This document shows, in pieces, positions 7,728 to 26,377 of a stretch of DNA of 64,000 nt. Under the pieces are notes generated by a model. The model was not told where the DNA came from. It saw only the letters and a list, made by a program, of their open reading frames with translations, and ran no database searches. The DNA is from Cyanobacteria bacterium SIG27. GTDB taxonomy: Bacteria; Cyanobacteriota; Vampirovibrionia; Gastranaerophilales; Gastranaerophilaceae. Each line of letters starts with the position of its first letter. The stretch's first letter is position 1. Both the position numbers and the translations under genes were made by a program. The stretch covers positions 1-64,000 of the forward strand of contig SUTT01000005.1 in NCBI GenBank assembly GCA_015152565.1, in the 5' to 3' direction.

Positions 7728-8472
7728 CTTTTTTCTCCGTTAATCCAAAAGCTTCAATATCTTCTTTGTATCTAATTAATGCTCGAAGTAAATACAAATC
7801 TTCTATTGTTGTAATTTTTATGTTACCACGATTGCCTTCAATCATATATGTAGGTTTATTTAATGTTTTAAATAATGTACATGAATCAACAATGTTGTCA
7901 TATTTTGGATTAATTTTGCGAGTTATTTCGTGGGCTTCATAAATTTCGTTCAATCTAAAAGTTTGAGGTGCTTGCGCTGAAAAAGTATTCTTTCTATATG
8001 GGACATGTTGCGGATTGGTGTGATTTTCGCTGATTAAAATTGTTTCATAACATGGTGTGCAAGTTATTGCATTCCCGTTTTTCTTTGCGCAATCAATATT
8101 TCTTGAAATTGTTTTAAAGGTTATATTGGGACGAACTCCATCATGAATTAAAACAAGAGAATTTTCATCATTATCTTTTTTTGCCAAGTTTAATGCATTA
8201 TAAATTGAATCCTGACCTGTTTCACCACCTTCTATAATTCCAGCAATTTTTGATATATGGAAATACTCCACTAATTCTTTCATATATTTTTTATAGTCAG
8301 GATGAATAGCGACATATATTTTATCTATTTGTTCATGTTTTTGAAAAAGTTCCAAAGTATGAACAATAATTGGCTTTTCATTTATTTTCAAAAATTGTTT
8401 TGGGATTGAATTTTCATTGCTATTCAAACGTTTCCCAGCACCACCTGCAAAAATTATGGCAATGTTAGTCAT
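7720..8472 (-). CDS. IspD/TarI-like cytidylyltransferase
   Basis: A 250-residue nucleotidyltransferase with the signature loop AGGAGKRL, then PKQF, HDGVRPN, QAPQTFR and TTIEDL, all typical of IspD and TarI. It transfers CMP from CTP to a polyol phosphate (TarI) or to methylerythritol phosphate (IspD). The neighbours (a TagF-like polymerase upstream and an SDR downstream) favour a TarI-like role in activating ribitol phosphate or a related polyol. The true housekeeping IspD could still be this gene. GGAGG five bases before the ATG at 8472 decides this start; the longer frame begins with TTG at 8484. It overlaps the upstream gene by 8 bases. Confidence 0.8.
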   Translation of the reverse strand: MTNIAIIFAGGAGKRLNSNENSIPKQFLKINEKPIIVHTLELFQKHEQIDKIYVAIHPDYKKYMKELVEYFHISKIAGIIEGGETGQDSIYNALNLAKKDNDENSLVLIHDGVRPNITFKTISRNIDCAKKNGNAITCTPCYETILISENHTNPQHVPYRKNTFSAQAPQTFRLNEIYEAHEITRKINPKYDNIVDSCTLFKTLNKPTYMIEGNRGNIKITTIEDLYLLRALIRYKEDIEAFGLTEKKDG

Positions 8473-10807
8473 CCATACCTCCAAAATTTAATCTTTTCTT
8501 GAGTTCCTCAACAATTCGTTTTGAATTATTCACATTATTATACTCACTTGGCAACAAACTCTCTAAAACACTCATTCTGCGTTCTTTATATTCATCTACT
8601 CCGTTTGCCAATTTTTCTAACGCACAAATATTTTCAGACCAATCTTTTGTTAATTCACCAGCTAAATATTCATTATATGGTTTGTTGAAAGGTTGGTCAG
8701 TACTTTCAATGGTATCTATATCAAACGCAAAATAAATAACAGGTTGTTTGGTTATTAGAAAATCTTGTGCAATAGAAGAATAATCAGTAATTAAAACAGA
8801 ATACTTATATAATTCAGCATAAATATCTTTTGAATTATCTTTAAAAATATTGTCATATTGCAAGATTGCATCATTAATTTTGTTAGTATAATTTCTCCAA
8901 GTATGTGGATGAAGTCGAAGATATAATTCTCCATTATGTTTGCTTAAAAATTCATTTAATTTTGGAAGGTTTTTAATGAAATTGTTTACCATAAATTGTT
9001 CATCTTCCATATTCCAACGATAAGTTGGAGCATATAAAATTCTAAACTTATCATCGTTTGATGTGTTATTATAAGTTAAAATATTTCTTGGGTTTCCAAC
9101 TAAAAAACGTGCTTTTTCATTTGTTTTTATAGGTGCAGCAAATGTGTCAATAAAAATTTGTCCAGGACAACACATCATATAATATTGCTCAAATAATTCT
9201 CTAAATGGAGCAATGAATGGGTATTTTAATATTTTAATTAATTTGATTAAAATATTATCGGTATCTCCAATTAATATATCGGAAGAAAGTCTGGCACCTT
9301 TTACAGTCGTATTTGTTAAAAAATCCCCTTTTGGAATACTGCTTTTAGGCCCTACGCCATGCCAAAGTTGAACAAATTTAGTTCTAGCATTAAATCCATA
9401 TCGATTGTCATAATCTGTCATTTTAAAATGATCACTAAATGCTATTTCAGCTCTGGCTGTCGTCCAAATACCTTTTAAGCTTGTCATATTTAAAACAGGC
9501 ATTTTGTTTTCTTTAAGCAATTTTCTGATAGATTTATCTTTTGAAACCCATACGGCTTCAATTTCCGGATGGTTTTCGACAATATATTCAAATAGATATT
9601 TTGTATTATCAATGTAGTTTTTTTTATTAAATCCAGAAAAGACCCAGAGATTTTTCTTTTTAGGAACTAAAGCAAAAATCCAATAAGCAAAAAATGAGTG
9701 TGCAATTTTAATTAAACTTTTAATTTGTTTGCAAATTTTTTTACATCTATAAATACTTTTTAAAATAGGTTTTATAATTTTTAAAGTGCTATTTCTTCTT
9801 AATAAATTTGCTTGTTTTAACCCTAGTTTGTCTACCTGTTGTAATCTATATTTATATTCGCTAAGTAAAGAAATAACTTTATCATATTCACTTGGATATG
9901 ATTCTTTTAATTCGATTAATTTTTCCCATTTTCCAGATTTTATGATGGCATTTGTATAATTGATGATTTCTGTCCATAAGCGACTTTCAAGTGCGCCTAT
10001 ACCAAAAGAATTATAATGAACTTTAAAATAATTAATACTACCACCTAAAATACGAAAATAATCATTTACCCGTGTGTTTAAAAAATGTTCGGTAATATCT
10101 TGATTGTTATAAACTACCCCTTGCTCAACTCGTCGATATATGCTCATGTATTCATCTATTATATACATGGATTTATCACCAAGGTTTAAAAAAATCACAC
10201 TCATATCTCCGCCAGGACCGCCAGATTTTGCCCAATTTGGATATTTTTTGATTATGTTTCTTACTAGCAAACTTGACGTGTGAGGCCATTGTTTCATAAT
10301 GTGTTCTATTTTGATAAATCTGCCTACAGGTGTTTTTTTTCTATCCGGAATGGTTAGTGGTTCTTCTTGCTTTGAATAGTAATTATATAGGTTCCAGCTT
10401 TTATTAGCCAAAATATAAGTTTTATGTGCGCAAATATTTACATCTTTATTTTTTTCCATAAAATCAAATTGCTTTTGCAATTTGTTTTCATCTGTCCAAT
10501 AATCATCGCCATCACAAAATGCTGCATAAGGTGCCGTTACATTTTCGCACAAATCCATAAAATTAGCTAAACAACCCATATTTGGATTTCTTCTGATGTG
10601 TTTGATTATATCTGGATATTTTCTTGCATATTCTGCTACAATTTCGCTTGTGCCATCTGTTGAACAATCATCGCCAACTAAAACTTCAAATTTAAAATTG
10701 GTTTTTTGCATTAAAAAACTGTCTAATGCTTCTTTAATATAATCTTTTTGATTGTATGTAACGCATACTACTTGCACTTTTACTTCTGATGCAGTGTTGG
10801 TATTCAT
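8465..10807 (-). CDS. Glycosyltransferase 2 fused to CDP-glycerol/polyol phosphotransferase (TagF-like)
   Basis: A 780-residue two-part enzyme. Residues 1 to about 230 are a GT-A family 2 glycosyltransferase (VVCVTYNQ, VGDDCSTDGT, FCDGDDYWTDEN). About residues 365-775 form a TagF/TarF-like polyol-phosphate transferase with FVQLWHG, LYAPTYRW, LRLHPHTW and VLITDYSSIAQDF. The first half should add a sugar and the second should transfer polyol phosphate from a CDP-polyol to build or prime a teichoic-acid-like chain. The adjacent cytidylyltransferase would supply the CDP-polyol. The gene abuts its upstream neighbour with no gap, using the ATG at 10807. Confidence 0.88.
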   Translation of the reverse strand: MNTNTASEVKVQVVCVTYNQKDYIKEALDSFLMQKTNFKFEVLVGDDCSTDGTSEIVAEYARKYPDIIKHIRRNPNMGCLANFMDLCENVTAPYAAFCDGDDYWTDENKLQKQFDFMEKNKDVNICAHKTYILANKSWNLYNYYSKQEEPLTIPDRKKTPVGRFIKIEHIMKQWPHTSSLLVRNIIKKYPNWAKSGGPGGDMSVIFLNLGDKSMYIIDEYMSIYRRVEQGVVYNNQDITEHFLNTRVNDYFRILGGSINYFKVHYNSFGIGALESRLWTEIINYTNAIIKSGKWEKLIELKESYPSEYDKVISLLSEYKYRLQQVDKLGLKQANLLRRNSTLKIIKPILKSIYRCKKICKQIKSLIKIAHSFFAYWIFALVPKKKNLWVFSGFNKKNYIDNTKYLFEYIVENHPEIEAVWVSKDKSIRKLLKENKMPVLNMTSLKGIWTTARAEIAFSDHFKMTDYDNRYGFNARTKFVQLWHGVGPKSSIPKGDFLTNTTVKGARLSSDILIGDTDNILIKLIKILKYPFIAPFRELFEQYYMMCCPGQIFIDTFAAPIKTNEKARFLVGNPRNILTYNNTSNDDKFRILYAPTYRWNMEDEQFMVNNFIKNLPKLNEFLSKHNGELYLRLHPHTWRNYTNKINDAILQYDNIFKDNSKDIYAELYKYSVLITDYSSIAQDFLITKQPVIYFAFDIDTIESTDQPFNKPYNEYLAGELTKDWSENICALEKLANGVDEYKERRMSVLESLLPSEYNNVNNSKRIVEELKKRLNFGGMDD

Positions 10808-11803
10808 CTATAATATTCTCCATAATAAAACCAAGCTTAAAACTATAGCTAAGCTTATAAATATAAAAAACAACTTTTTATATTTTTTGTATTTGTGCCT
10901 TAATTTTTTAGAACTGTTTATCGGGATAATTTTTTCCATTAGTTCTAAATTCTCTTCTTTAATTTTGATGCATTTATCAAAATTTCCATAAGCAAAGTGT
11001 GCTTGTAAAACTTCTTTAAGAGTTGGCAATAAGACATTATATAAATATTCGTCGGATTTTTCTGCAAACCTTTCCCATACTAATCTATGAAAATTAATTT
11101 TTTCAATTCCATATTCAAGGTTGAGTTTTATATTGTCTTTAAATGAGTTATACCAAACTCCTTTTGGTTGTCTTCTATAGGCTGCCATTACTTTATTTAT
11201 ATAACCAATTTTGCCTGTTTTTGCGTGTGCAAGGTGAATATACCAGTCTATTGGCATTATATTTTTTGGTAAATATTTTTCTATTCTTTCGTTTCTAAAA
11301 TTCCATCTATACATTACAGAATTTGTTTGTATAAAATTTGAATATAAAAGTTTTTCAAAAGTGAATTCTTTTTTATGTTTTGGGTAGATGTAATTTCTTG
11401 CTTCTTTGTTTTCAAAAATAACTTTTACAGGATGAAAACAGGTTGAATATTGCGGGTTTTTTTCTAAAAAATCAACTTGTTTTTGAAGTTTATTTTCATC
11501 TGTCCAATAGTCATCCCCTTCGCAAATTGCAACGTAAGGAGTATTGATGTCGCTATAAACATCGCATAAATTGCCATATATTTTAGTATTTTCTTTTTGA
11601 TAAATAGGCTTGATTATTTCAGGATATTTTTTTGCATATTCTTCTATAATTTTTTTTGTATTATCAGAAGAGCAATCATCGCCAATTTTTACAATAAAAG
11701 GGAAGTTGGTTTTTTGTGCAATAAAACCATCAAGAGCTTGCCTAATGTATTTTTCTTGATTGTATGTTATGCAGCAAATCGTGACCTTTGGCTCTTGGGA
11801 CAT
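10808..11803 (-). CDS. Family 2 glycosyltransferase
   Basis: A 331-residue GT-A enzyme with ICCITYNQE, IGDDCSSDNTK and CEGDDYWTDENK, very close to the first domain of the neighbouring fusion protein and probably a duplicate of it. A single hydrophobic segment at the extreme C-terminus (FFIFISLAIVLSLVLL) should anchor it to the membrane. It would add one sugar to the surface polymer or its linker. The start overlaps the aminotransferase stop by one base (TAATG), so the two are translationally coupled. Confidence 0.87.
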   Translation of the reverse strand: MSQEPKVTICCITYNQEKYIRQALDGFIAQKTNFPFIVKIGDDCSSDNTKKIIEEYAKKYPEIIKPIYQKENTKIYGNLCDVYSDINTPYVAICEGDDYWTDENKLQKQVDFLEKNPQYSTCFHPVKVIFENKEARNYIYPKHKKEFTFEKLLYSNFIQTNSVMYRWNFRNERIEKYLPKNIMPIDWYIHLAHAKTGKIGYINKVMAAYRRQPKGVWYNSFKDNIKLNLEYGIEKINFHRLVWERFAEKSDEYLYNVLLPTLKEVLQAHFAYGNFDKCIKIKEENLELMEKIIPINSSKKLRHKYKKYKKLFFIFISLAIVLSLVLLWRIL

Positions 11804-12915
11804 TAAAACACCTCTAAAATTGCTTCAAGTTCCTCTTGTTTTAGTGAGCCATAAAATGGCAAACATAAAACCTTGTGTTTCAAGTCATTCACAACAGATA
11901 AATCTGCAAGTTTTACCGCTAAATCGTTTTTATAACATTCATAATCAGTACAAGCTGGATAAAAATATTTTCTTGTTAAAATATTTCTTTCTTTAAATTT
12001 TTCATAAAGCTCATTTCTTGTTAAAGGGTAATCTTCTTCAATTACAATTGGATAATATTGATATGAATCTGTTGTATTATCAGGCATTTTCGGTAATCTT
12101 ATACCTTTAATTTTAGATAAATTTTCATTATAAAATTGTTTAACTATTTCTCTTTTTTCTTGTTCTTTTTTGTATAATTTTAAATTTTCCAAACCAACAG
12201 CCGCTTGAATTTCATTTAATTTGCCATTAATTCCAACTTCTTCTACAAGTTCTTCTGATTGAATTCCAAAGTTTCTAAGATTATAGATTTTTTTAACTAA
12301 GTTTGGGTCATTAAATGTTAAACAGCCACCTTCAATTGTGTTATATAGTTTTGTTGCATGAAATGAAAACATTGTTATATCACCAAATGTTCCAATTCCT
12401 CTACCATTAATTTCTGTTGTAAATGCATGGGCTGCATCATAAATTACTTTTAAATTATATTTTTTAGCGATTTTTTCAATGCGCTCAACATCACAAGGAA
12501 AACCATAAACATGAACACCTAATATTGCTGATGTATTTGGAGTGATTAAGCTTTCAATTTTATCGGCATCTATTGTCATTGTTTCTGGCTCAATATCACA
12601 AAAAACAGGTTTTAAGCCATTCCAAGAAATGCAGTGAGGGGTTGCTGCAAAAGTAAATGGAGTTGTAATTACTTCACTTCCGTATGGTAAATCAAGAGCT
12701 TTAATCGCAACTAAAAGAGCTATTGTTCCATTGTTAAACAAAGATACGTTTGGAACTTTTAAAACATCTTTTAGTTTGTTTTCAAGTTCATTATGTTTTG
12801 ATCCCATATTTGTAAGCCATTTTGAAGACCAAATTTCTTTTAAATGTTCTTGTATAGTTTCAAGGTTTGGTAACATTGGTTGAGTTACAAATATTTTTTC
12901 CAAAGTTTTTATCAT
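11803..12915 (-). CDS. DegT/DnrJ/EryC1-family sugar aminotransferase
   Basis: A 370-residue PLP-dependent enzyme that aminates a keto group on a nucleotide sugar. It shows VSLFNNGTIALL, PFTFAAT, YDAAHAF and the PLP lysine in FHATKLYNTIEGG. The ATG at 12915 is preceded by GAGG at suitable spacing; the longer frame starts with TTG at 12933 inside the upstream gene. No dTDP-sugar dehydratase is in the window, so its keto-sugar must come from elsewhere. It supplies an amino sugar for the polymer made by the genes downstream. Confidence 0.87.
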   Translation of the reverse strand: MIKTLEKIFVTQPMLPNLETIQEHLKEIWSSKWLTNMGSKHNELENKLKDVLKVPNVSLFNNGTIALLVAIKALDLPYGSEVITTPFTFAATPHCISWNGLKPVFCDIEPETMTIDADKIESLITPNTSAILGVHVYGFPCDVERIEKIAKKYNLKVIYDAAHAFTTEINGRGIGTFGDITMFSFHATKLYNTIEGGCLTFNDPNLVKKIYNLRNFGIQSEELVEEVGINGKLNEIQAAVGLENLKLYKKEQEKREIVKQFYNENLSKIKGIRLPKMPDNTTDSYQYYPIVIEEDYPLTRNELYEKFKERNILTRKYFYPACTDYECYKNDLAVKLADLSVVNDLKHKVLCLPFYGSLKQEELEAILEVF

Positions 12916-12922
12916 ATAGCCT

Positions 12923-13273
12923 CTACAGTGCAAAATTCCTATCTAATTCCAAAGACAAATTTTGTTCTTTATCAATGTATTTAAACGCTTGAGAAACGCC
13001 GCATTGATAAAAAATGTTCATTAATTTAGTTAAATCACCGGTTTGTATGCAATAATTATATGCAAATACCTTTCGCCAAGAAACAATCGAATATTTATCT
13101 TCCATTTTTAATTTTTTACAAACGGCACTAAAATGTTGATGAATTGAAAATTTATTAAAGTTATTTTTGTTAACTGACTCAAAAAGCGGCTCTTTGTATT
13201 TTGAATTATTACTATATTCTTCCTTGATTACCTCTATTGTTTTTATATCTTTAATAGGTAATTGCTTGCCCAT
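12923..13273 (-). CDS. Tyrosine-recombinase-like C-terminal domain protein (degenerate)
   Basis: A 116-residue protein. Residues from about 65 on (SWRKVFAYNYCIQTGDLTKL, then YQCGVSQAFKYID) follow the pattern of the C-terminal half of a tyrosine recombinase: the Arg of the H-x-x-R box, the helix with G-D-L, and the final Tyr. Both histidines of the catalytic set appear replaced (Val and Cys), so strand exchange is unlikely. It has a good Shine-Dalgarno (GAGGC) and heads the surface-polymer operon, so it may be a DNA-binding regulator or the remnant of an inversion recombinase. Family assignment is by pattern only. Confidence 0.5.
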   Translation of the reverse strand: MGKQLPIKDIKTIEVIKEEYSNNSKYKEPLFESVNKNNFNKFSIHQHFSAVCKKLKMEDKYSIVSWRKVFAYNYCIQTGDLTKLMNIFYQCGVSQAFKYIDKEQNLSLELDRNFAL

Positions 13274-13320
13274 TATTGCCTCTTAATTCCATTCTTAATT
13301 GCAAAATATTAAAATATAAC

Positions 13321-13342
13321 ATTGCATATTTAAAATTGCATA
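13321..13342. promoter_or_regulatory. Direct repeats upstream of the surface-polymer operon
   Basis: Two copies of ATTGCATA start at 13321 and 13335, 14 bases apart, in the AT-rich leader about 50-70 bases upstream of the operon's first start codon. Spacing and position suit an operator, but no regulator can be assigned. Confidence 0.3.
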
Positions 13343-13513
13343 AATACATGTTATCACGAAAAGTTTATTGTCTAGTGTTTATTAAAAAATGTTATATTTA
13401 TTTTGAATTTTGACAAATATTTTTTTAAACGCCGTAATCAATTGTTTTTTAAGTAATATCGCATGTTTAATAAAAATTGATGTTATATTTGCTAAAAATA
13501 AGGAGAAAAATTT

Positions 13514-13554
13514 TCGTAAAAATAAAACCCACTGATTAAGCCAGTGGGTTTTAT
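13514..13554 (-). terminator. Rho-independent terminator of a candidate small RNA
   Basis: A 13-bp stem (13522-13534 with 13542-13554, containing AAAACCCACTG) and a 7-base loop are followed on the minus strand by TTTTATTTTT. No protein gene ends just upstream, so it should terminate the transcript at 13555-13690. Confidence 0.75.
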
Positions 13555-13690
13555 AATGATAGCAGCAATGGAGTAAGCTGCTGCCTTTGTAGGTTTTGAA
13601 GCATAAAAACACGGAAGTAACAGTGAATTAACATTGAATTTTTCTTTAGATAACCCGTAAATTGGACAAAGTGCGCCGTCTGGGAAAAAA
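13555..13690 (-). ncRNA. Candidate small RNA between two terminators
   Basis: About 135 bases on the minus strand lie between the tRNA-Ile terminator and a second strong terminator and encode no plausible protein. A GC-rich hairpin AGCAGC/GCTGCT (about 13561-13584) stands out in an AT-rich setting. The part ACCTACAAAGGCAGCAGC resembles the apical SRP RNA motif (CC, loop, GG, then AGCAGC), but the pairing that SRP RNA needs further out is not evident. I call it an unidentified small RNA. The exact 5' end is not defined. Confidence 0.35.
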
Positions 13691-13694
13691 TGGC

Positions 13695-13731
13695 AAAAAT
13701 AAAACCCGGTAGATAAACTACTGGGTTTTAT
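13695..13731 (-). terminator. Rho-independent terminator of tRNA-Ile
   Basis: The stem AAAACCCAGTAG/CTACCGGGTTTT (minus strand, one wobble pair) begins right after the tRNA CCA end and is followed by ATTTTTG. Orientation and position fit the tRNA gene. Confidence 0.75.
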
Positions 13732-13807
13732 GGTGGGCCATCCTGGACTCGAACCAGGGACCTCACCCTTATCAGGGGTGCGCTCTAGCCACCTGAGCTA
13801 ATAGCCC
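13731..13807 (-). tRNA. tRNA-Ile (GAT anticodon)
   Basis: A 77-base cloverleaf on the minus strand: acceptor GGGCTAT pairs with ATGGCCC, the D arm contains AGCTCAGGTGG, the anticodon loop CTGATAA gives GAT, and the T arm has GGTTCGAGTCC. CCA is encoded. It decodes AUC and AUU. The tilS gene at 45561 would modify the separate tRNA-Ile(CAU), which is not in this window. Confidence 0.97.
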
Positions 13808-13877
13808 GAAAGTGCTTCAGATTTGTTCCGTAACCTTTCGCAAGATTTATAGTATCAAGAACAAAATTTAAAGTCAA

Positions 13878-15569
13878 CTACATTTTTTCTACAGGATTAA
13901 CTCCAATTAAATTAAGCATTGTAGCCATAATTATTCTAAAGCAATTAACAAGTGATAGTTTCATTAAGCTATCTTTTTTATCTTGCGATAAAACTCTTGT
14001 GTAATTGTAGAAATGATGGAATGAATTAGCTAATTCTGTTAAATATTTGCAAAGCATATAAGGAGCTCTGTATTTAACAGCGTTTGCTAATAAAGCTTTG
14101 CCTTCTTCAAGTTTTAATATCAATGCTTTTGTAGCTTCCAAACTTTCTTCTGACATATTATCAAACATATCTAAAATATTCGGTTGTTCATTAAATCCAT
14201 TGATTTCTTCTTGAGTTAAAAGTGGTTCTAATTCTGTTTTATTATCTATATCTATTCTTTTTTCAATTGCTTTTCTTAAAATTGAACATGCTCTAGCATG
14301 AGCGTATTGAACATAAAAAACGGGGTTTTTATCTGTTTGAGATTTAGCTAAATCAATATCAAAATCAATTGTTGTATCGGCTGAGCGCATCAACATCCAA
14401 AAACGAGTAGCATCAACTCCAACTTCTTCAACTAAATCATCAAGAGTAACCATTTTTTTGCGTTTACCCATACGTTGTTGTTCGCCATCTTGTATTAAAT
14501 TTACGAGCTGACCCAATAGCACTTCAAGTTTATTTGAATCATATCCAAGTGCGTCAATTGCTGCTTTCATACGAGGAATGTAGCCGTGATGATCTGCTCC
14601 CCAGATGTTAATTAATCTTTCAAAACCTCTATCAAGTTTATTTTTATGATATGCAATATCTGCTGTTAGATATGTATTTTTACCATCGGTTTTAACTAAA
14701 ACTCTATCTTGATCATCTTCATAATCAGAACTTCTAAACCAAGTTGCACCGTCTTTTTCATAAATTTTGCCTGATTTTTTCAATGTTTCCATACAGCTTT
14801 CAACTTCTTTATTTTCATAAAGTGAAAGTTCTGAGAAAAATAAATCAAAATGTGTGCCAAATTTTTCAAGTAATTCTTTTTGTAATCTTAGCATATCTTG
14901 TTTTGCAAAATCGGCATAATTTAAGCCTTTATTATCTTCAAGATATCTTTTAGCGCAATCAATCAAATATTCTCCTGGATACATATCTTCTTCAAGTTCA
15001 ATATTTTCACCTTGAAGTTGTTTAACTCTAACTTCTAAAGATTTTCCAAGTTTATTAATTTGATTTCCTGCATCATTAATATAAAACTCTTGAAAAACGT
15101 CATAATTGCAATATTTCATTATGTTAGCTAGCGCTGAACCCAGTGCTGCCCAGCGACCGTGTCCAATATGAAAAGGTCCTGTTGGGTTTGCGCTAACGTA
15201 TTCAATGTTTACTTTTTCGCCATGACCTACGTCAGTTTTAAGATAGTTTTCTTTTTTATCCAAAATATCAACAATGATATTGTTTAAAAATTCTTTTTCT
15301 AATTTGAAATTAATGAAACCTGCAACAACATTAATTGTGAAGTTTTCAGTTTTAATATGCTTAACGATAGCTTGTGCTATCATTGGTGGAGCCATTTTGG
15401 CAGTTCTAGCTAGTGCTGAAATGTTTATTGCAAAATCGCCAAATTCTTTGTTTTTTGGGGTGTCGCAAACAAGTTCAAAAGTTAATTCTTTTGTTTCGCC
15501 AAGTTCATTTAATTTAATTGCATTTTTGATTGCGTTTTTTGTGATTTCAATAAAATAATTCTTTAACAT
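13878..15569 (-). CDS. argS: Arginyl-tRNA synthetase
   Basis: A 563-residue class I synthetase that charges tRNA-Arg. The N-terminal additional domain is followed by NPTGPFHIGHGRWAALG (HIGH motif), the substrate-binding INDAGNQ, a KMSK-equivalent region GKRKKMVTL and a C-terminal DALR anticodon-binding domain with HHFYNYTRVL. Length is normal for the family. It reads towards the tRNA-Ile gene and has no operon partner. The upstream gap of about 150 bases is shared with a divergent small gene. Confidence 0.96.
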   Translation of the reverse strand: MLKNYFIEITKNAIKNAIKLNELGETKELTFELVCDTPKNKEFGDFAINISALARTAKMAPPMIAQAIVKHIKTENFTINVVAGFINFKLEKEFLNNIIVDILDKKENYLKTDVGHGEKVNIEYVSANPTGPFHIGHGRWAALGSALANIMKYCNYDVFQEFYINDAGNQINKLGKSLEVRVKQLQGENIELEEDMYPGEYLIDCAKRYLEDNKGLNYADFAKQDMLRLQKELLEKFGTHFDLFFSELSLYENKEVESCMETLKKSGKIYEKDGATWFRSSDYEDDQDRVLVKTDGKNTYLTADIAYHKNKLDRGFERLINIWGADHHGYIPRMKAAIDALGYDSNKLEVLLGQLVNLIQDGEQQRMGKRKKMVTLDDLVEEVGVDATRFWMLMRSADTTIDFDIDLAKSQTDKNPVFYVQYAHARACSILRKAIEKRIDIDNKTELEPLLTQEEINGFNEQPNILDMFDNMSEESLEATKALILKLEEGKALLANAVKYRAPYMLCKYLTELANSFHHFYNYTRVLSQDKKDSLMKLSLVNCFRIIMATMLNLIGVNPVEKM

Positions 15570-16549: not shown

Positions 16550-17383
16550 ATGTGGGAATATACAGATAAAGTTAAAGAGCATTTTACAAATCCTAAAAAT
16601 GTTGGCTCAATTGAAAATGCAGACGCAATTGGAGAAGCAGGAGCTTTGTCTTGCGGAGATAAATTAAAATTATATTTAAAAATAGATAAAAATATTATTG
16701 TTGATGCTAAGTTTCAAACATTTGGTTGTGGTTCTGCTGTTGCTGCAAGTAGTGTTTTAACTGAAATGTTGATTGGCAAAACACTTGAAGAAGCAAGAAA
16801 AATTACAAATAAACAAATTGCAGATGAATTAGGTGGTTTGCCTCCTGAAAAAATGCATTGTTCTGTTATGGGTCGTGAAGCGCTAGAAGATGCACTTCGC
16901 AATTACTATCAGGAAGATTGGCAAGAACTTGTTGAAGAAGAAATATACGAAGCAGGTTCTAATATAATTTGTCATTGTTTTGGTGTAACTGAAAAACAGA
17001 TTGAAGATGCTATATTGAATAATGGTGCTAAAACTTTTGAAGATGTTTCAAAAATCACATCTGCGGGACTTGCTTGTGGAAGATGCAGGGAAAATATTAA
17101 GGCTATTATCGCTCGTCATGTCAAGCAAGAAGATAAACCAATTTTAACTCCTGTTCAAAAAATTATTAAAATCAATAGTGTGATTGAAACAGTGATTTCT
17201 CCAGAATTACAAAAAGACTTCGGGGATATTGAACTAATTAACGTTGAAAATGATAATGTATATGTTAAATTAAAAGGGCATTGTTCGCAATGCGCTAATG
17301 CAAAATTGACTCTTAAAAACTTTGTTGAAGCAAAGTTGAAAGAGCTTGTAGATGATAATATTACAGTTTTTGAAGAGCAATAA
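16550..17383 (+). CDS. nifU: Fe-S cluster scaffold NifU (three-domain)
   Basis: A 277-residue scaffold on which NifS-derived sulfur and iron are built into clusters. Residues 1-125 are IscU-like with cysteines in ALSCGDK, FGCGSA and MHCSV. About residues 135-190 form a BFD-like [2Fe-2S] domain (ICHCFGVT and ACGRC). About residues 200-277 are the C-terminal NifU domain with GHCSQCA. The stop overlaps the nifS start (TAATG), coupling the pair. Nothing here concerns nitrogenase; general cluster assembly in an anaerobe is the likely role. Confidence 0.95.
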   Translation: MWEYTDKVKEHFTNPKNVGSIENADAIGEAGALSCGDKLKLYLKIDKNIIVDAKFQTFGCGSAVAASSVLTEMLIGKTLEEARKITNKQIADELGGLPPEKMHCSVMGREALEDALRNYYQEDWQELVEEEIYEAGSNIICHCFGVTEKQIEDAILNNGAKTFEDVSKITSAGLACGRCRENIKAIIARHVKQEDKPILTPVQKIIKINSVIETVISPELQKDFGDIELINVENDNVYVKLKGHCSQCANAKLTLKNFVEAKLKELVDDNITVFEEQ

Positions 17384-18576
17384 TGAAAGAAATATATTTA
17401 GATAATAATGCAACAACTCGTGTAGATGATAAAGTTTTAGAAGCCATGCTTCCATTTTTAAAAGATAACTATGCTAACCCATCTAGCATGTATGACCCTG
17501 CAAGAACTACTTCTTGTGCTATTGAAAAAGCAAGAGAACAAATTGCAGATTTTTTAGGGGTAAATGACCCTAAAACAATTCTTTTTACTTCTTGTGGAAC
17601 TGAAAGCGCTAATACTGCTATTAAAGGCGTAGTTGAAAAATTTGGAAACAAGGAAACTAAAAACCATATTATTACAACAAGGGTTGAACATCCTTGCGTG
17701 TTATCGGTATATGAAAATTTAGAAAAAAAAGGCTATAAGGTTAGCTATGTTGGAGTTAATGAAAACGGTGAATTAGATATTGAAAATCTAATTTCTCTAA
17801 TTACTCCAGAAACGATTTTAGTTTCTGTTATGCATGCTAATAACGAAATAGGAGCAATTTATCCTGTATATGAAGTCGCTTCAAAAGTTAAAGAAAAAAA
17901 TAAAGATATTAAGGTTTTTGTTGATGGTGTTCAAGCGGCAGGTAAAATTCCAATTAAACTTCAAGATAGCGAGATTGATTTTTATTCGATTTCTGCTCAT
18001 AAGTTCCACGCTCCAAAAGGCGTTGGAGCGCTATACGTTAAGAAAGGAACATTGTTTGAGCCTTTTATGCTTGGTGGCCATCAGGAAAATTCTCTTCGAG
18101 CAGGTACTCAAAACACTCCTTATATTGTAGCTATGGGTGTTGCCGCAAAATTAGCAAAAGACGCTCTTGATTATGAGCTAACAGAAGTTAAAAGATTAAG
18201 AGATAAACTAGAACAAGGAATTTTATCTCAATTGGGAAATGCTAAATTAAATTCAAAAGCAAGTTCTAGAGTTCCGAACACTACAAATATTGGCTTTGAA
18301 TACATTGAGGGTGAATTAATTTTATTATATTTAAACGAACTTGGAATTTATGCTTCATCAGGAAGTGCCTGCACATCTGGTTCGCTAGACCCATCTCATG
18401 TTTTAAGAGCGCAAAAAGTGCCATTTACTTCTTTGCATGGTTCAATTCGTTTTTCTTTATCTCGTTTTACAACAGAGGAAGAAATAGACTATGCTATTGA
18501 AAAAGTTCCTGAAGTCATTAAAAAGCTTGCTAAAATTTCCCCATTCCAAAAAGAATTAAATGAACTTGGGCTTTAA
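17383..18576 (+). CDS. nifS: Cysteine desulfurase NifS
   Basis: A 397-residue PLP enzyme that converts cysteine to alanine and hands the persulfide sulfur to NifU. It shows YLDNNATTRVD at the start, the PLP-binding lysine in SAHKFHAPKG and the catalytic cysteine loop SSGSACTSGSLDPSHVL. Length fits NifS/IscS. Coupled to nifU by a one-base overlap. A group of NUMOD-like repeat proteins begins 41 bases downstream on the same strand and may share the transcript. Confidence 0.95.
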   Translation: MKEIYLDNNATTRVDDKVLEAMLPFLKDNYANPSSMYDPARTTSCAIEKAREQIADFLGVNDPKTILFTSCGTESANTAIKGVVEKFGNKETKNHIITTRVEHPCVLSVYENLEKKGYKVSYVGVNENGELDIENLISLITPETILVSVMHANNEIGAIYPVYEVASKVKEKNKDIKVFVDGVQAAGKIPIKLQDSEIDFYSISAHKFHAPKGVGALYVKKGTLFEPFMLGGHQENSLRAGTQNTPYIVAMGVAAKLAKDALDYELTEVKRLRDKLEQGILSQLGNAKLNSKASSRVPNTTNIGFEYIEGELILLYLNELGIYASSGSACTSGSLDPSHVLRAQKVPFTSLHGSIRFSLSRFTTEEEIDYAIEKVPEVIKKLAKISPFQKELNELGL

Positions 18577-18617
18577 AATAAAAAGCAAAAATATAAATTT
18601 AGTTGTTTTAAATTAAT

Positions 18618-19583
18618 ATGCAAATAAGTTTAATAAGACCAATTTATCCTAAAATAAACAAGCTAAACACTTTAAAACAAACACAAATTCAAAGTAATTC
18701 TAAGTTTGAATTAGGCAATATTCAACCACATTTTTTAGGTATTAGAATTGCTCGTAGTGTTTGTTTGATTTTTGAAGATGGCTCAATAGAAAAATTAGAT
18801 AGTTATCAAGCAGCTGCTGAAAGATTAGGCGTTTCCGGTGATGTGATGTATAACTATTTAAGAACAAATTCTAAAGCCAAATTAAACGGCGCAATTTGCA
18901 CATATAGCGATATTATCGAGAAGAAAAATGACAATGGTTCAACTGAGTACGATAATGAAGCTATTGAACAATTAAAAATTAGAGCTAAAATTCAAGGAAT
19001 ATCAAGCCCAAAAACTGATAAAATTAACGCAAAATACAAAAAACAGATTTATATGGTGTCTTTAGATGGTTCAATTAAAAAATTTAATTCTAGAGCTGAA
19101 GCTTCAAGAGAAACAAAAATTCCGACTGGTGGTATTTCAAATATTTTAAACCCTGAGCACCCGCATACAGCAACAAGGGAGCGCAAAACTTTTATTAGTG
19201 TTTATGATGCGTCTATTAAAGATAAAAATGGTGACTTAATATTAGATGAAAATAATGAACCAATTTTAGATGAAAAAGTTATTTTTGGAATAAGAAAAAT
19301 GTTATCAAAACTTCCTGTTCCTCAAATTGTTTCAATTGACAAAGACTGCAACGTTAAAATTTTTCAATCAAGAGCGGAAGTTGTTGAAAAAGAAAATGTC
19401 TGTCCATCAACACTTGATTGGAATATTGTATGCATGGCAAGAAAAATTGGCGATAAAACATACGCCAAATTGAGCGATGTTATTTTAAAAGACGATGATG
19501 GTTTTGCTGTTTTTGATGAAAATGGCGATTATATTTTAGATAGGGCTAAAATTGAAGCCTTAAAGGATATTGCAGGTTTATAA
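18618..19583 (+). CDS. NUMOD1-like tandem-repeat protein (3 repeats)
   Basis: A 321-residue cytoplasmic-looking protein of unknown function. After an N-terminus MQISLIRPI and HFLG at about residue 37, three units of about 90 residues follow. Each starts with a short beta hairpin (VCLIFEDGSIEKLDS, IYMVSLDGSIKKFNS, IVSIDKDCNVKIFQS), then a helix-turn-helix-like segment (AAAERLGVSGDVMYNYL), then an acidic D-x-N-G linker. The hairpin plus HTH resembles NUMOD1 modules that accompany homing nucleases, but no nuclease motif is present. First of three paralogues in a row. Confidence 0.7.
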   Translation: MQISLIRPIYPKINKLNTLKQTQIQSNSKFELGNIQPHFLGIRIARSVCLIFEDGSIEKLDSYQAAAERLGVSGDVMYNYLRTNSKAKLNGAICTYSDIIEKKNDNGSTEYDNEAIEQLKIRAKIQGISSPKTDKINAKYKKQIYMVSLDGSIKKFNSRAEASRETKIPTGGISNILNPEHPHTATRERKTFISVYDASIKDKNGDLILDENNEPILDEKVIFGIRKMLSKLPVPQIVSIDKDCNVKIFQSRAEVVEKENVCPSTLDWNIVCMARKIGDKTYAKLSDVILKDDDGFAVFDENGDYILDRAKIEALKDIAGL

Positions 19584-19633
19584 TTTATAAATAAAATACG
19601 GCAAAAATTAATCTTTAGGGGTTTTGTAGGATT

Positions 19634-21211
19634 ATGAAAATCAGTCCTATTAAACAAAACTTTATAAATTATAAAAACAATTCAAATAATAAATTTCAAA
19701 TAAAAGAAAATGCAAATAAAAAACCGCAAAATTTTAATTTTCCTTTTGATTATTCGATGTTGAATTTTTGTGCTCAGTCAGCTAAACCTGTTTATTTATT
19801 TGATGTTGTTAGTGGAGCATGTACAAGATTTAACTCTGTTGATGATGTTGCCTCTTTTTTAAAAGTTGCAAAAAGCTATATATATAATTCTGCAATTCAG
19901 AAAAAAGCAATCAATGGTTTTGTGATTTTAAAGGCAAGCGAAGTAGAGCTTAAAGATGAAAACGATGAAATTAAATTAGATTTTAAAGGTAGCCCTCTTT
20001 TAAATCAAGATTTAATAAAGCAAGCTCGTGCTGAGGGATTGAGCGGCGGTTATGATTTTCCTGTTTTATTTTTCGATAGAAGTGGAAAAGTGAACTTTTT
20101 TTCAACAAAAAAATTATTGCTATATAGTGACATTAACCCTGATAAAGGGAGAGTTGTTGCTTTATCTGATGTTGTATTAAAAAAAGATAACGAAGTTGTT
20201 TTTGATGAAGAAAATAATTTTATGCTAGATTATGATAAATTAGAACAATTATACAAAGAAACCTTTGTTGATTCAGCTTTTAATCCTTTTGCAATTTATA
20301 AAAAGATGATTTTGAATAGACAAGAAGCTGAATCTAAAATGTCTATTTTATCTCAAATCGAAAAAGCGAAAGATACTGCACAAGATAAAAAAGAACAACA
20401 AGGTTATTATATTTTAAGATATGATGGAACTTATGAAAAATATCCTACGATGAGCGCTATACTTGAAGCTTTAGATGGGGATGTTACAAGAGCTTCTGTT
20501 AGAAATTCGATTTATCAAAATAAAAAAGCCATTGGCGAGCGTTGTTTTTTTGAAGCTTCTAGCTTAGAAACTCAAAATGAAGATGGTGTTTGGGAAGTTG
20601 ATAAGCAAAAAGTTAAAAAGGCTTTAGAAAAATTCTCTGGCGGAAGCAATCAGCCCCTTTATTTAATTGATATTGACGGAACTTACAAAAGATATTCTTC
20701 AAGAAATGAATGTATAAAACAAGAAAATGTTCAAAGATCTGAATTTGTTAGCTATCTTAATGGAAGCCGTTCGACTTTTAGAAGCGGAGCTTGCGTTGAA
20801 GCGTTTGATTTTGAATTAAGAGATGAAAATGGCGTTTTGTTAAAAAATCCTGACGGAACACCAAAAATAAACACTGAAATGCTGCGAAAAATTATTCAAG
20901 AAACCATAAAAAATTCAAGGCATATTGTTTCTGTTCATAAATCGGGCAAAGTTGAAATTTTCCCTACAGCAAAAAGAGCAAGTGACGAGCTTTTGAGTCT
21001 TGCTTTGCGTGTTCCAAGAGGTGCTCGAGATGTTCATTCAATCAGGGGCGAATATGCATTTTTGCATTTATCTCAAGCAATAAAACGTGATGAAAATGGA
21101 AACTTTGTTTTTGATGAATTTAATAAATATGTTTTAGATGAAGAATATTTAAATGAATTGGCAGACATTTTAGTGAGCAAGAGAAGCAAGAAGGATAAAA
21201 ATGAAAATTAA
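19634..21211 (+). CDS. NUMOD1-like tandem-repeat protein (5 repeats)
   Basis: A 525-residue paralogue of its neighbours. It starts MKISPIKQNF and has LNFCAQ at about residue 53, after which about five repeats follow. Unit starts include VYLFDVVSGACTRFNS, VLFFDRSGKVNFFS, YILRYDGTYEKYPT, LYLIDIDGTYKRYSS and IVSVHKSGKVEIFPT. The second unit has lost most of the HTH-like part. Linkers carry DENGxxxxD-type acidic turns. No signal peptide, membrane segment or catalytic motif is visible. Its 3' end overlaps the next gene by 11 bases. Sequence-specific DNA binding is the best guess, from NUMOD1 likeness only. Confidence 0.7.
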   Translation: MKISPIKQNFINYKNNSNNKFQIKENANKKPQNFNFPFDYSMLNFCAQSAKPVYLFDVVSGACTRFNSVDDVASFLKVAKSYIYNSAIQKKAINGFVILKASEVELKDENDEIKLDFKGSPLLNQDLIKQARAEGLSGGYDFPVLFFDRSGKVNFFSTKKLLLYSDINPDKGRVVALSDVVLKKDNEVVFDEENNFMLDYDKLEQLYKETFVDSAFNPFAIYKKMILNRQEAESKMSILSQIEKAKDTAQDKKEQQGYYILRYDGTYEKYPTMSAILEALDGDVTRASVRNSIYQNKKAIGERCFFEASSLETQNEDGVWEVDKQKVKKALEKFSGGSNQPLYLIDIDGTYKRYSSRNECIKQENVQRSEFVSYLNGSRSTFRSGACVEAFDFELRDENGVLLKNPDGTPKINTEMLRKIIQETIKNSRHIVSVHKSGKVEIFPTAKRASDELLSLALRVPRGARDVHSIRGEYAFLHLSQAIKRDENGNFVFDEFNKYVLDEEYLNELADILVSKRSKKDKNEN

Positions 21212-22328
21212 TCCAATAATTTTAAATAAAAATTATAATTTTAAATATAGCAAAGCACAAAAAAGCGAAAAAATGTGTGAAAATTTTAACTACACAAGTT
21301 CGCTTCAGTGTCTTGCTAATCAAAACATCTCTTTTTGTGCTAAAAAACCAGTTTATGCCATGGGTAAGGATTTCAAATTAATTTATTTTGATTCAGCGCA
21401 ACGAGCAAGCTTGGTTCTTGGAGTGAATGATTCTGCAATTGCTAGCGTTTTAAAAGGAAGAAATCATTTGGCAGGAGATTATGCTTTTGCTTATGCTTCC
21501 GAATTGGAAATAGAAAATAAAGATGGCAAAAAAGAATTGAGTCCTGATGCCGTTGAAAGATTAAAAGAAAATTTTAAAAATGCAAAAACTGTTCCGACAT
21601 ATATTTTAGATTATGATGGTAATTTAACAAGATGTGACACCCAAACGCTTGCCGCAAGAGTACTTAAAACAACACTCAAGGTTGTTAATAAAGCTGCTTG
21701 CGGATATGCTTATCTTGCTAAAAATCATATTGTTATTCCGGCAGATGAAATTGAACTAAAAGACGATAATGGCGATACTATGCTCGGTTTTAATTCTAAA
21801 CCGTTGTTAAACTATGAAAAAGTTAGACTGGAATTAGCAAAATTTTCCAATACTCAATTTGCACCAGTTTGTACAGTTGATTATTTAGGAAATATTCAAA
21901 GATTTAACAACAAACAAGAGTTGATTGATGAAAAAGATGTTTCACTTGGTACTGTTTCAAGTTGTTTAAATAGTGGAAAACCAACTCGAGATAAAATCAT
22001 TGTTTATGAAAACGATATTTTATTTAGGGATGAATTTGGTAAAACTAGAAAAGATATCAATGGTAATTATATTTACGATTTATCTAAAATAAATAAACGT
22101 TTGCAAGTTTTTGCAGATTCAAAATTGAAACCAATTAGAGTTAAGGATGTTAAAGGTGATAAAATACATTACTATTATTTTGACCATGGGCAACATGCAG
22201 CTGAACAGCTAGGCATCACAAAACAAATGGTTTCAAGGTGCTTAAAACAAGAGCGCCCTTGGAATGGATATTATTTTGAATATATGTATCCAACTTATTT
22301 AGATAAATATACTATTGTATCTAATTAG
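21201..22328 (+). CDS. NUMOD1-like tandem-repeat protein (4 repeats)
   Basis: A 375-residue third paralogue: N-terminus MKINPIILNKNYNF, then ISFCAKKPVYAMG, then four units. The first (FDSAQRASLVLGVNDSAIAS followed by VLKG) and last (AAEQLGITKQMVSRCLKQ) are the clearest HTH-like segments in the family; the last ends with WNGYYFEYMYP. Acidic linkers such as KDDNGDTMLG separate the units. It shares the transcript with the preceding paralogue and ends in an 8-base convergent overlap with the AsmA-like gene. Function unknown. Confidence 0.7.
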   Translation: MKINPIILNKNYNFKYSKAQKSEKMCENFNYTSSLQCLANQNISFCAKKPVYAMGKDFKLIYFDSAQRASLVLGVNDSAIASVLKGRNHLAGDYAFAYASELEIENKDGKKELSPDAVERLKENFKNAKTVPTYILDYDGNLTRCDTQTLAARVLKTTLKVVNKAACGYAYLAKNHIVIPADEIELKDDNGDTMLGFNSKPLLNYEKVRLELAKFSNTQFAPVCTVDYLGNIQRFNNKQELIDEKDVSLGTVSSCLNSGKPTRDKIIVYENDILFRDEFGKTRKDINGNYIYDLSKINKRLQVFADSKLKPIRVKDVKGDKIHYYYFDHGQHAAEQLGITKQMVSRCLKQERPWNGYYFEYMYPTYLDKYTIVSN

Positions 22329-25300
22329 TTTCTTGTGTTTCTTGTTGTATTTGTGTAGCTGTTGGAATTTTCAATTTTTCTTGAAGTTTTAATTTAAGAG
22401 CATTTTGAGCATCAAGAAGCTTTTGCTCTTGTTCTTGTTTTTTAAGCTCAATTGCTTCTTGGAGTTTTTTAGCGTTTTCTTCTTGTTTTTGTTGAACTTT
22501 TTGTTCAAGTTCTTTTGCTTTTGCTTCAAGTTCTTTTTTAGTTTCTTCTTTTTTAACTTCAACCGCCTGTTGAACGCTTTGAACAGCTTGTTCTTTCTTT
22601 TTAGCTGCTTCTTGTTCTAAAATCTTTTTAACTTCAGGAGCAGTTGTATCCATTTGAAGGATTTTTTCTAATCCAACTTTAATCTTGTGATTTTGTTCAT
22701 AATCATTTTGAAGTTGTTTTATTAGCTCTTCTTGAACAAAATTTGCACTAAATTCTGTTGCCTTGTCCATATCTTCTTGTAAAACAAGCCATTTAAAAGA
22801 TTTAACTAAAGAAAGTGGTTTTAAGACGCTTCCATCTAAAACAACTTGAAATTTTGTAGCGTTAGCGTCTGAATGATCTTTTGCAAAATCAGGAATTTCT
22901 TTATATTCGCTTTCTTCTACAACTTCAGAGAAAACTGAAAACAGTTTAGCACTTGCGATGTTTAATCCTGGAGTATTTTTAACAAGGTTTATAGGGTTTG
23001 CCATGGCGATTGGTCCAAGCATATCTGAAACAGTGCTTGCAAGGCGAACTCTCACTTTTGAATTTAAATCGTTTGTTAAAAGATTCATATTTCCATTAAC
23101 CAAAACGCAAAGAATATCCCCTTGGGATTTGATTGAACCTAAATTTACAACCCCATTATTAAAGCTAACTTTGCCTTCTAGAGTTTCATAGTGTGAACTA
23201 TCAATTGTTGTAATCGGAGTTAAAACAACCCCGATAGTGTTTTTAAAGAATGCATTTTCTCTTATATTTTCCGCTAAAAAGAAATTTTCTAATTTTGCAA
23301 AAGGGCCATATTGACCATCTTTAAGATTAAAAGTTACATCTCCTTTTAGTGATTTCATTTGTTCTTCATAAGTTGCGCCTTTAAGCGAAATATCAGTTTT
23401 AAAATTCATTGTTCCTGATATTGTGTTTTTTAAATTTGCAGCATCAGACGCTGCTTTATCAGCGTTTAATCCTTTCCCGTTTAGTTTTATAGTTAAAAGC
23501 GAACTTAATAAATTCATTTTAATGTCGCCATCAACTTTTCCGTCAAATGCGTCACAATTAAGATTTTTAATTGTTAAATTATTGTTTTTAATTCCCAAAT
23601 CACCTTTGATATTTCTAATCACCATATTTCCTGTGGTTAATTTTTTAATATCAAATTTTCCATCAGCAGCAAGCGGAATATCAGCTGGAGCTGCATTTTT
23701 GTTGCTTGTTGCTGGAGCTGGTGGCATATATTTCATTAATTTATCTAAAACAACTAATGCGCTATCAACATTTAATATTCCTGATTTAACTTCAATGTCG
23801 CTAATTTTAAATACATCTGCTGGTTTTAAGTCTGCCTTTAAACCTGCATCAATTTTGGAACCATTAATATCTATATTTTTTGTTTTTAAATTTAAACCAT
23901 TTGAAATAAAATCAAGGTCAATTAATTCTGTTTTAAATAGAATTTCAGGGATATCAACATTTGAAACTTTTAAGTCCCCACCAAAACTCAAATCATCAAA
24001 TGAACCGTTTAGTGTGATTTTGCCTTTGGTGTTAAATTTAGAATTTTTAAAAATGCCAATTTGTCCGCTTTGAACTTCTGGAATATTAATTCTAAATAGA
24101 TTAATATGTCCATTATCAAGAATAGTTGTTAATTCTGCTACTCTTTGAGCATTTAGCATATTTGCTTCAAGGTCATTATTAAATCCATTTTGAACTTTAA
24201 ATAGACCTGAATTTTTAATATTAATTTTGTTTTTGTGAATTTTAATATCTGCCTGAGCTATGCTTTGACCTCCAACAAGCGAATTTAGGTTGATTGGAGT
24301 TATAAAATTGTTATTATCGGCATAAATTTGAGCCAAGATTTCTTGCTTAGATAAATCTCCTTTAATTGAAACTTTTGCTGGAATTATCCCTTTGGATGGA
24401 ATAAAATGGGCGATTTCTTTTCCAAGAGTTTCGTTGAGGTTTTTTGTTGAAATTTTAGCGTCGGCAAATATATCAATATTTGGATTTTTTGTGTAGTTTA
24501 AAATGTTACCTTTTACATTGATTTTAGATAAATCATTGTATGTAAAATCAAAAGGACTAATTTGAATATTTTCGCTATCTAGAGCAATATTTAATTTATC
24601 AATTTTTCCTATCGTTTTTAATTGAGGTAAATTGATTTTAAAATTGTTATTTGCAATTTTTCCGTTGATTGCTGTTGGAGTTGCACTAAAGTTAATATCA
24701 AGATTGTCATTTGAAACAATCATTGTTTTTTTAGGGTCAGATAAATTTAAATTATTTAATTTTGCATCTAAATTAGCAGTTAGGTTATCAAGTTTTCCTT
24801 TGATATCAACGTTTGTTGTTAAATATGCTTTGTTTAAAACAATTGAATTTTTGAGCTCTTTTGGTGCAAAAGCTGAATATAATTCACTTAAAGATAGATT
24901 ATCTATGTTTAACTTGATATCTGCATTTGACTTTGTATCAATTGAGCCTTTTGCGTTTAGTTTTGAATTGTTGATTGATAAAGATGTATCTTTAATATTT
25001 AAAATGTTGTTATCTAAAATCAAATTAACAACAATGTCTTTTATTCCAATATTGTTTTTAGGGCTAATAAAAGAGCCGTCTTTAACAATAATTGAGCCTT
25101 GAGATTTTAGTTTTTTAAAGTTTGTTTTAATGGAAGCGTCAGCTATTAAATAACCCGTTGTTTTAATTTGTTTTAATTCGTTTTTAATGTTTAAACTGTC
25201 TAAAAGCCCTGCTAATAGGTCAATTAAATTAGTAAAGTGAATTTTATCTGATAAGATTTGTGTTTTAATTCTTGGTTTTTTGCCGTATTTTAGCTCGCCA

Positions 25301-26298
25301 ATTAAAGCAATTTTTTCATTATCTTTTGCATATAAATTAGAATCAAATATTACCTTTTTGCCGTGGGTTTTAGCGTGGATATAGCTATTTGGAAGCCTAA
25401 TATCTGAAAGTTTTAAATTAATATCATCAATATTAAAATATCCAAAAGAAATAAAGCCTTTTTGAGAGTTTTTAATTCTTAATGTTGAATCGATATTTGC
25501 TTTTAAATCGTAAGTTTGATAAATTTTAACAATGTTTACAAAAGGAAGCGCAATTTTTTCTTCTGGGTCTTTTGCTTCTGTTGCTGGTTGTGGTTTTGGA
25601 AGCTGTGCTTTTACGTTGATAGAAGCTAAAATATTTTCTTTGTCATCAGATAACAATTTAGCGTTCGTTTTGATTTTTATTGAATTATTTGCGCTATTGT
25701 AGCCAACAATTAATTCTTCAGAGTTTAATTTTAAGTTGTGACTTGTTTTTAAATCGTTTATTAAAGCTTCAAAGTTAACAATTTTAATTGCTGGGATTTT
25801 AATTTTAATATTTTTTACTATTTTTTCAACAAGTTCGTTTTGTTCTGCTGCAGGGGCTTTTGGCTTTGCATTATTTTCGTTAATAATATCTTCAACAATG
25901 CTTAAAATTTTGTACTGTTTATCATCTAAAATTTCTAAATTAATATAAGGATTAATTACTTCTGTTTTTGCTGTTTTAATGGTTAAAGTTAACAAAGATG
26001 GTAGTGCAATTCCACCTTTAATTTTTTCTGTTTTAAATACGCTTGATTTATCATCTAAAGTGACATTAATATCTTCAATTATTGCGCCTATAGATAACAA
26101 TGGAGTTGAATAAATCTTAATTTTTGAATAATCAAGATTTAATTTTGCACTATCTTTAACGATTTTTTGAATATCTTTTTTATGCTTATCAAGGTCATAA
26201 ACTGCGTTAAAAATTGGTGGTGCAATTAAAAAGGTTAAATATAATAAACCTAAAATTATAGCTAAGCTAATTGAAAATATAGTAAAAAATTTTTTCAT
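22321..26298 (-). CDS. Giant AsmA-like envelope protein
   Basis: A protein of about 1325 residues: a single N-terminal membrane anchor (about residues 7-30), a long series of beta-rich segments of AsmA/TamB style (repeated D-I-x-L-S, N-G-x-I and S-x-G-x-I patterns; late domain with LNGKGLNADKAASDA and LKGDVTFNLKDGQYGP), and a Gln/Glu/Lys coiled coil over the last 130 or so residues. AsmA-family proteins span the periplasm and take part in outer-membrane lipid transport, which supports a diderm cell. GGGGAG before the ATG at 26298 decides the start; the longer frame begins with TTG. Confidence 0.8.
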   Translation of the reverse strand: MKKFFTIFSISLAIILGLLYLTFLIAPPIFNAVYDLDKHKKDIQKIVKDSAKLNLDYSKIKIYSTPLLSIGAIIEDINVTLDDKSSVFKTEKIKGGIALPSLLTLTIKTAKTEVINPYINLEILDDKQYKILSIVEDIINENNAKPKAPAAEQNELVEKIVKNIKIKIPAIKIVNFEALINDLKTSHNLKLNSEELIVGYNSANNSIKIKTNAKLLSDDKENILASINVKAQLPKPQPATEAKDPEEKIALPFVNIVKIYQTYDLKANIDSTLRIKNSQKGFISFGYFNIDDINLKLSDIRLPNSYIHAKTHGKKVIFDSNLYAKDNEKIALIGELKYGKKPRIKTQILSDKIHFTNLIDLLAGLLDSLNIKNELKQIKTTGYLIADASIKTNFKKLKSQGSIIVKDGSFISPKNNIGIKDIVVNLILDNNILNIKDTSLSINNSKLNAKGSIDTKSNADIKLNIDNLSLSELYSAFAPKELKNSIVLNKAYLTTNVDIKGKLDNLTANLDAKLNNLNLSDPKKTMIVSNDNLDINFSATPTAINGKIANNNFKINLPQLKTIGKIDKLNIALDSENIQISPFDFTYNDLSKINVKGNILNYTKNPNIDIFADAKISTKNLNETLGKEIAHFIPSKGIIPAKVSIKGDLSKQEILAQIYADNNNFITPINLNSLVGGQSIAQADIKIHKNKINIKNSGLFKVQNGFNNDLEANMLNAQRVAELTTILDNGHINLFRINIPEVQSGQIGIFKNSKFNTKGKITLNGSFDDLSFGGDLKVSNVDIPEILFKTELIDLDFISNGLNLKTKNIDINGSKIDAGLKADLKPADVFKISDIEVKSGILNVDSALVVLDKLMKYMPPAPATSNKNAAPADIPLAADGKFDIKKLTTGNMVIRNIKGDLGIKNNNLTIKNLNCDAFDGKVDGDIKMNLLSSLLTIKLNGKGLNADKAASDAANLKNTISGTMNFKTDISLKGATYEEQMKSLKGDVTFNLKDGQYGPFAKLENFFLAENIRENAFFKNTIGVVLTPITTIDSSHYETLEGKVSFNNGVVNLGSIKSQGDILCVLVNGNMNLLTNDLNSKVRVRLASTVSDMLGPIAMANPINLVKNTPGLNIASAKLFSVFSEVVEESEYKEIPDFAKDHSDANATKFQVVLDGSVLKPLSLVKSFKWLVLQEDMDKATEFSANFVQEELIKQLQNDYEQNHKIKVGLEKILQMDTTAPEVKKILEQEAAKKKEQAVQSVQQAVEVKKEETKKELEAKAKELEQKVQQKQEENAKKLQEAIELKKQEQEQKLLDAQNALKLKLQEKLKIPTATQIQQETQETN

Positions 26299-26377
26299 AA
26301 TACTCCCCAAATAATGTTAATTAAATTATATGATAAAAATTATTTCGTTCTTTATTGAAACAAAATTTTTACAATTG

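Follow-up and report, generated by a model that had tools for sequence, protein, structure and literature searches.

NUMOD modules are familiar mainly as the part with which selfish homing endonucleases grip DNA. I-HmuI, an HNH intron endonuclease with a solved structure (PDB 1u3e), has a single such module, a C-terminal domain composed of a hairpin and a helix-turn-helix (HTH), alongside its nuclease. With loosely tethered NUMODs, homing endonucleases engage sites that can be as long as 30 bp (PMC3943268). The DNA-binding domain of I-TevI represses its own promoter without cutting, according to a review of T4 mobile elements (PMC2988022).

The repeats of the locus described here have the hairpin-HTH domain of I-HmuI, but the locus differs from I-HmuI in the serial arrangement of the modules, in the absence of a nuclease, and in an acidic extension which completes a unit of 78 residues. 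The domain of the PF22083 and PF07453 NUMODs is common to the arrays, and serial repetition without a nuclease is the feature of the arrays themselves. We propose a likeness to I-TevI in having a modular DNA-binding region that can work on DNA without cutting it; I-TevI differs in its GIY-YIG domain and its known operator, whereas regulation by the arrays is something we infer. A search of the open-access literature found no description of such nuclease-less NUMOD arrays. The original prediction spoke of a possible new DNA-binding family, and this is appropriate for the array architecture, which is new, but not for the module, which was already known.

The window, the whole stretch of 64,000 nucleotides that was analyzed, contains three consecutive genes with intact open reading frames (ORFs) encoding P0001, P0002, and P0003 (Table 1). 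Each protein opens with an N-terminal tail of 44-49 aa, and the remainder had been read as 3, 5, and 4 serial repeats. To keep the test non-circular, the repeat profile was made from the repeats of relatives only, with the window repeats excluded. This profile recovered exactly these 3, 5, and 4 repeats with scores of 108.0 (P0001), 165.3 (P0002), and 137.7 bits (P0003), and the top score in 900 composition-preserving shuffles was 11.5 bits. The repeat unit is about 78 aa long, with a median start-to-start spacing of 82 aa in 44 family proteins, and its consensus is KKPIYAIDKDGNYKKFDSQKEAAKELGISKSSISRVLNGKRKTIKGYVFVYANEVETKDENGNIVVDEEKIEELLKEF. A hairpin, a helix pair, and an acidic linker had been expected in every repeat; most repeats have them, but B2 is without the helix pair and C4 without the linker.

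Table 1. Features of the array locus and its flanks in the window.
Feature	Position	Strand	Evidence
nifU-nifS pair, upstream flank	16550..18576	+	
nifS-P0001 gap, holds terminator left arm AAAAAGCA	18577..18617	+	
P0001, 321 aa, 3 NUMOD-type repeats	18618..19583	+	ORF; PF22083 match; window-independent profile
P0001 N-terminal tail, residues 1-44, with QPHFLGIR motif	18618..18749	+	
Repeat A1 (P0001)	18750..18986	+	
Repeat A2 (P0001), long acidic linker	19038..19304	+	
Repeat A3 (P0001), long acidic linker	19320..19574	+	
P0002, 525 aa, 5 repeats	19634..21211	+	ORF; PF22083 match; window-independent profile
P0002 N-terminal tail, residues 1-49, with SMLNFCAQ motif	19634..19780	+	
Repeat B1 (P0002)	19781..20035	+	
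Repeat B2 (P0002, residues 141-210), degenerate, no helix pair	20054..20263	+	
B2-B3 insertion (P0002), probably helical	20264..20395	+	sequence
Repeat B3 (P0002)	20396..20635	+	
Repeat B4 (P0002)	20648..20914	+	
Repeat B5 (P0002)	20915..21172	+	
P0003, 375 aa, 4 repeats	21201..22328	+	ORF; PF22083 above cut-off; AF2 model
P0003 N-terminal tail, residues 1-47, disordered by prediction, QNISFCAK motif at its end	21201..21341	+	
Repeat C1 (P0003), AF2-modelled	21342..21575	+	
Repeat C2 (P0003)	21588..21845	+	
Repeat C3 (P0003)	21858..22112	+	
Repeat C4 (P0003), core only, no linker	22125..22289	+	
AsmA-like gene, convergent flank	22321..26310	-	

Judged by profile matches and a structure model, the array repeats are true NUMOD modules with a beta-hairpin and HTH core. 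PF22083 matched P0003 above the curated cut-off of 27 bits (48 bits, E 9e-13) and matched P0001 (23.1 bits, E 5.7e-5) and P0002 (21.1 bits, E 2.3e-4) under it; scores among the relatives of the three proteins reach 197 bits. A profile of 80 repeats matched residues 121-170 of I-HmuI (1u3e) in the PDB with an E-value of 4.9e-7. We modelled the single repeat C1 with AF2 from an 80-row alignment (pLDDT 96.6), and the model starts with a hairpin, followed by two helices, a strand, a short helix, a second hairpin, and a final helix. Its top solved match is 1u3e_M, with an rmsd of 0.6 Å over 51 columns and a probability of 1.00. The structure check that had been suggested for a single repeat therefore returned a predicted HTH and confirmed the NUMOD likeness. 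The particular resemblance to NUMOD1 was accurate as far as a NUMOD with an HTH is concerned, but the repeats are nearer to PF22083, the I-HmuI NUMOD, than to PF07453 (NUMOD1). Residues 1-51 of the unit correspond to the known fold of the I-HmuI DNA-binding domain, and residues 52-78 form the acidic hairpin-helix extension. The net charge per repeat is +2.95 for the core and -1.97 for the linker. In the AF2 model of full-length P0003 (pLDDT 80.9, pTM 0.67), the four modules are near pLDDT 90 and the tail of residues 1-45 is disordered. The second solved match of the C1 model was the anti-CRISPR protein AcrVA3 (PDB 9kja; E 0.038, TM 0.52, 68 columns), and it is possible that the two have a common HTH-type fold. 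Weak Pfam matches to DUF4479, PfaD_N, and TrbI were judged to be chance.

The absence of a nuclease domain, which had been noticed from the open reading frames, was upheld by a Pfam search of the window proteins with E-values up to 10, which gave neither HNH nor GIY-YIG. Homing-endonuclease profiles of PADLOC and PHROG match only the modules of these proteins, that is, the DNA-binding part. An Rfam scan of the 13-28 kb region found only one tRNA and no intron RNA. On these grounds the window proteins do not qualify as HNH or GIY-YIG homing endonucleases: no catalytic domain was detected in them, and their genes lie in the chromosomal gap between nifS and the AsmA-like gene and not in a self-splicing intron or mobile element.

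In several members of the genus that are without the insert, the AsmA-like gene follows nifS directly. In G011 and G013 the nifS-AsmA gap consists of the hairpin terminator AAAAAGCATTGG...CCAATGCTTTTT. Of this terminator the window keeps just the left arm, AAAAAGCA, and the P0001-P0003 genes fill the remaining place. The same site is occupied by one six-unit gene in G002 and by at least two genes in G021. Since the terminator is lost, we suggest that the P0001-P0003 genes are read together with nifUS, the upstream pair with which they are probably co-transcribed. A recent horizontal gain of the three genes was unsupported, as their GC and GC3 are near those of the neighbours.

Most viral matches to the array modules are homing endonucleases of the HNH and GIY-YIG kinds. 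The closest relatives outside the family are HNH endonucleases of Lactobacillus phages, which have 2-3 tandem modules of similar design. The orf143 protein of phage LP65 consists of NUMOD4 (a weak match), HNH_3, and 3 tandem modules, and it aligned with a family member in tblastn over 238 aa with 31% identity (E 9e-14); the phage tblastn with another family member as the query gave no match. Orf143 and its relatives in phages Iacchus and Ldl1 resemble the arrays in their tandem modules, acidic linker, and D-K-L helix, but they carry the N-terminal NUMOD4 and HNH_3, are phage-borne, and have fewer modules. The arrays probably originated from the DNA-binding part of a phage enzyme of the LP65 orf143 kind, an HNH homing endonuclease.

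P0001-P0003 are arrays of I-HmuI-type NUMODs with no detectable nuclease domain, and we propose, with a probability of about 55%, that they derive from homing endonucleases and act as sequence-specific, non-cutting binders that occlude DNA. In each 78-aa unit, the net basic hairpin-HTH core is followed by the acidic hairpin and helix that join it to the next unit. The modules may be placed one after another along the DNA, each adding a weak major-groove contact, and the whole array would read a long composite site. We propose that such long sites are bound without being cut, and the arrays may serve as repressors or roadblocks, akin to the DNA-binding half of I-TevI at its own promoter. A phage HNH homing endonuclease would have lost its NUMOD4-HNH head, and its DNA-binding half would have been multiplied in this bacterial family. 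DNA binding is probable from the fold, the charge, and the variability pattern. Because the neighbouring genes vary between sites, a regulon is not suggested. Two features count against the view of a DNA reader: P0001-P0003 have pI values of 8.0-8.9, which is only mildly basic, and several modules, B2 and C4 among them, are degenerate.

Diversity between modules peaks at the exposed positions of the recognition helix (pair identity 0.097 vs 0.131, p 0.0004). Columns 29-48 are better kept in orthologues than other variable columns, though modestly (0.69 vs 0.61, bootstrap P 0.001). This signal drops to p 0.08 when the core columns only are considered, and the recognition-helix columns alone have no excess orthologue conservation (p 0.5-0.9). 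The pattern of diversity, conservation, and charge is what would be expected of specificity-setting positions in a DNA reader, short of proof. The variable recognition positions would be compatible with modular reading, and the arrays are possibly a beads-on-a-string counterpart of TALE repeats. We more tentatively entertain the idea that NUMOD units which each read a short piece of DNA are gained, lost, and re-specified, so that the arrays would be a natural, modular bacterial reader of long sites that does not cut them. The same data bear on the unlikely alternative that the arrays are architectural nucleoid proteins which bridge or coat DNA with little sequence preference. The many modules per protein, the mild basic charge, and the multiple paralogues in each genome are in line with such a role, but the diversity of the recognition-helix positions fits retargeting better than a common grip on the backbone, and a presence as patchy as 11 of 28 genus genomes counts against a core nucleoid function.

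Profile searches of genus, family, and phylum samples found relatives, as the original prediction had required of a real family, with arrays in those 11 genus genomes and in a few other genera of the family. Thirteen of the 28 genus genomes match the repeat profile, the two without arrays having one weak match each. In an even sample of the bacterial family, 11 of 191 genomes match, and every match among 386 genomes sampled across the phylum, in 4 of 142 genera, falls within this one family, so no arrays were found outside it in that sample. Beyond the phylum, the reach was that of pattern-seeded scans together with phage and plasmid tblastn, and a wider occurrence is possible. No relative of the array proteins was found by plasmid tblastn, by pattern-based scans of viral contigs with two family proteins, or by a pattern-based scan of genome contigs with P0002; a second genome-contig scan found only a query-identical match (CADBOJ010000011.1, isolate RUG14156). 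The fetched loci contain 44 array proteins with 196 units, mostly 3-9 per protein, which span a median of 83% of the chain. The array genes are located at about 20 chromosomal sites, counted as distinct surroundings, and several array paralogues occur per genome. The densest cluster found has six tandem NUMOD-array ORFs within 7.5 kb (L051, G023:C1:35001-55000, positions 6611-14058). Arrays in two genera (L074, L075, L082) have a neighbour from one and the same gene family (cl7, about 208 aa). The match in G037 is one module in a phage-like region and no array: a single-module protein (L087, 7847-8467) with, by eye, an HNH-like N-terminal part, among short phage-like genes. It is likely an ordinary homing endonuclease inside the same bacterial family.

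A patchy distribution would also be expected if the arrays were defence or counter-selfish proteins that occupy target sites, whether of phages, of introns, or of homing endonucleases, and thereby prevent entry or cutting. The gain and loss of repeats, the diversified recognition helices, and the homing-endonuclease origin agree with this. We nevertheless regard such a function as improbable: no defence-island context was seen around the arrays, whose chromosomal neighbours look mostly ordinary, the PADLOC matches are confined to the DNA-binding part of homing endonucleases, and no phage target was identified.

The earlier idea of a simple three-fold duplication was not sustained. P0001 and P0002 have related modules (A2-A3, B4-B5, and also g2_2-g2_3 are related), but C1-C4 of P0003 are collinear with g3_1-g3_4 of a protein at a different locus in G003. 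Gain and loss of repeats did hold; one orthologue pair (L044/L049) has 4 vs 3 repeats. Five orthologue pairs of array proteins, the window proteins not among them, have dN/dS values of 0.14-0.37 (ratio of NG86 dN and dS), which indicates that the array family is under purifying selection. It is very unlikely that the arrays are functionless, decaying remnants of selfish homing endonucleases. The degenerate modules B2 and C4 and a stop codon within one array (L079, G063:C101), probably a decaying copy, would suit such decay, but the low dN/dS in these pairs, the long intact ORFs of 44 proteins, the collinearity of modules across distant relatives, and the lack of a detectable HNH or GIY-YIG remnant in the window proteins argue against it.

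The tails of P0001-P0003 and most family proteins (e.g., L045, L049, L074) are rich in N, K, S, and Q, start with M[KRN][IV], and end just before the first repeat in a motif of the form hydrophobic-x-F-x-[GSA]-[KR]. Similar motifs open unrelated GAPDH-, DHH-, HAD-, and nucleotidyl-transferase-like proteins of the same loci, and a 633-aa protein in the window with no Pfam match (36177-38078, minus strand) has one of similar kind, RAISFGGS. The motif is possibly a lineage-specific tag. Least likely of all is that it is an address tag for export or special localization, with the array acting outside the cytoplasm on DNA or another ligand: in most family proteins the motif does stand immediately ahead of module one, after a tail that is predicted to be disordered in P0003, and similar motifs recur in unrelated proteins of these loci, but by eye there is neither a signal peptide nor a transmembrane segment, enzymes of the GAPDH, DHH, and HAD types are among the unrelated carriers, and the enrichment beyond the family is weak (16 vs 4 internal of 242 proteins near family loci, p 0.01, with one threshold of the four tried) and absent in 133 control proteins from two array-free genomes.

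If the proposal of non-cutting NUMOD arrays is true, this host-chromosomal family would have kept only the DNA grip of a homing endonuclease multiplied it up to nine times, and diversified the recognition helix, and would represent a domesticated selfish element. The arrays would then offer a naturally occurring way to test if NUMOD modules strung together can read long DNA.
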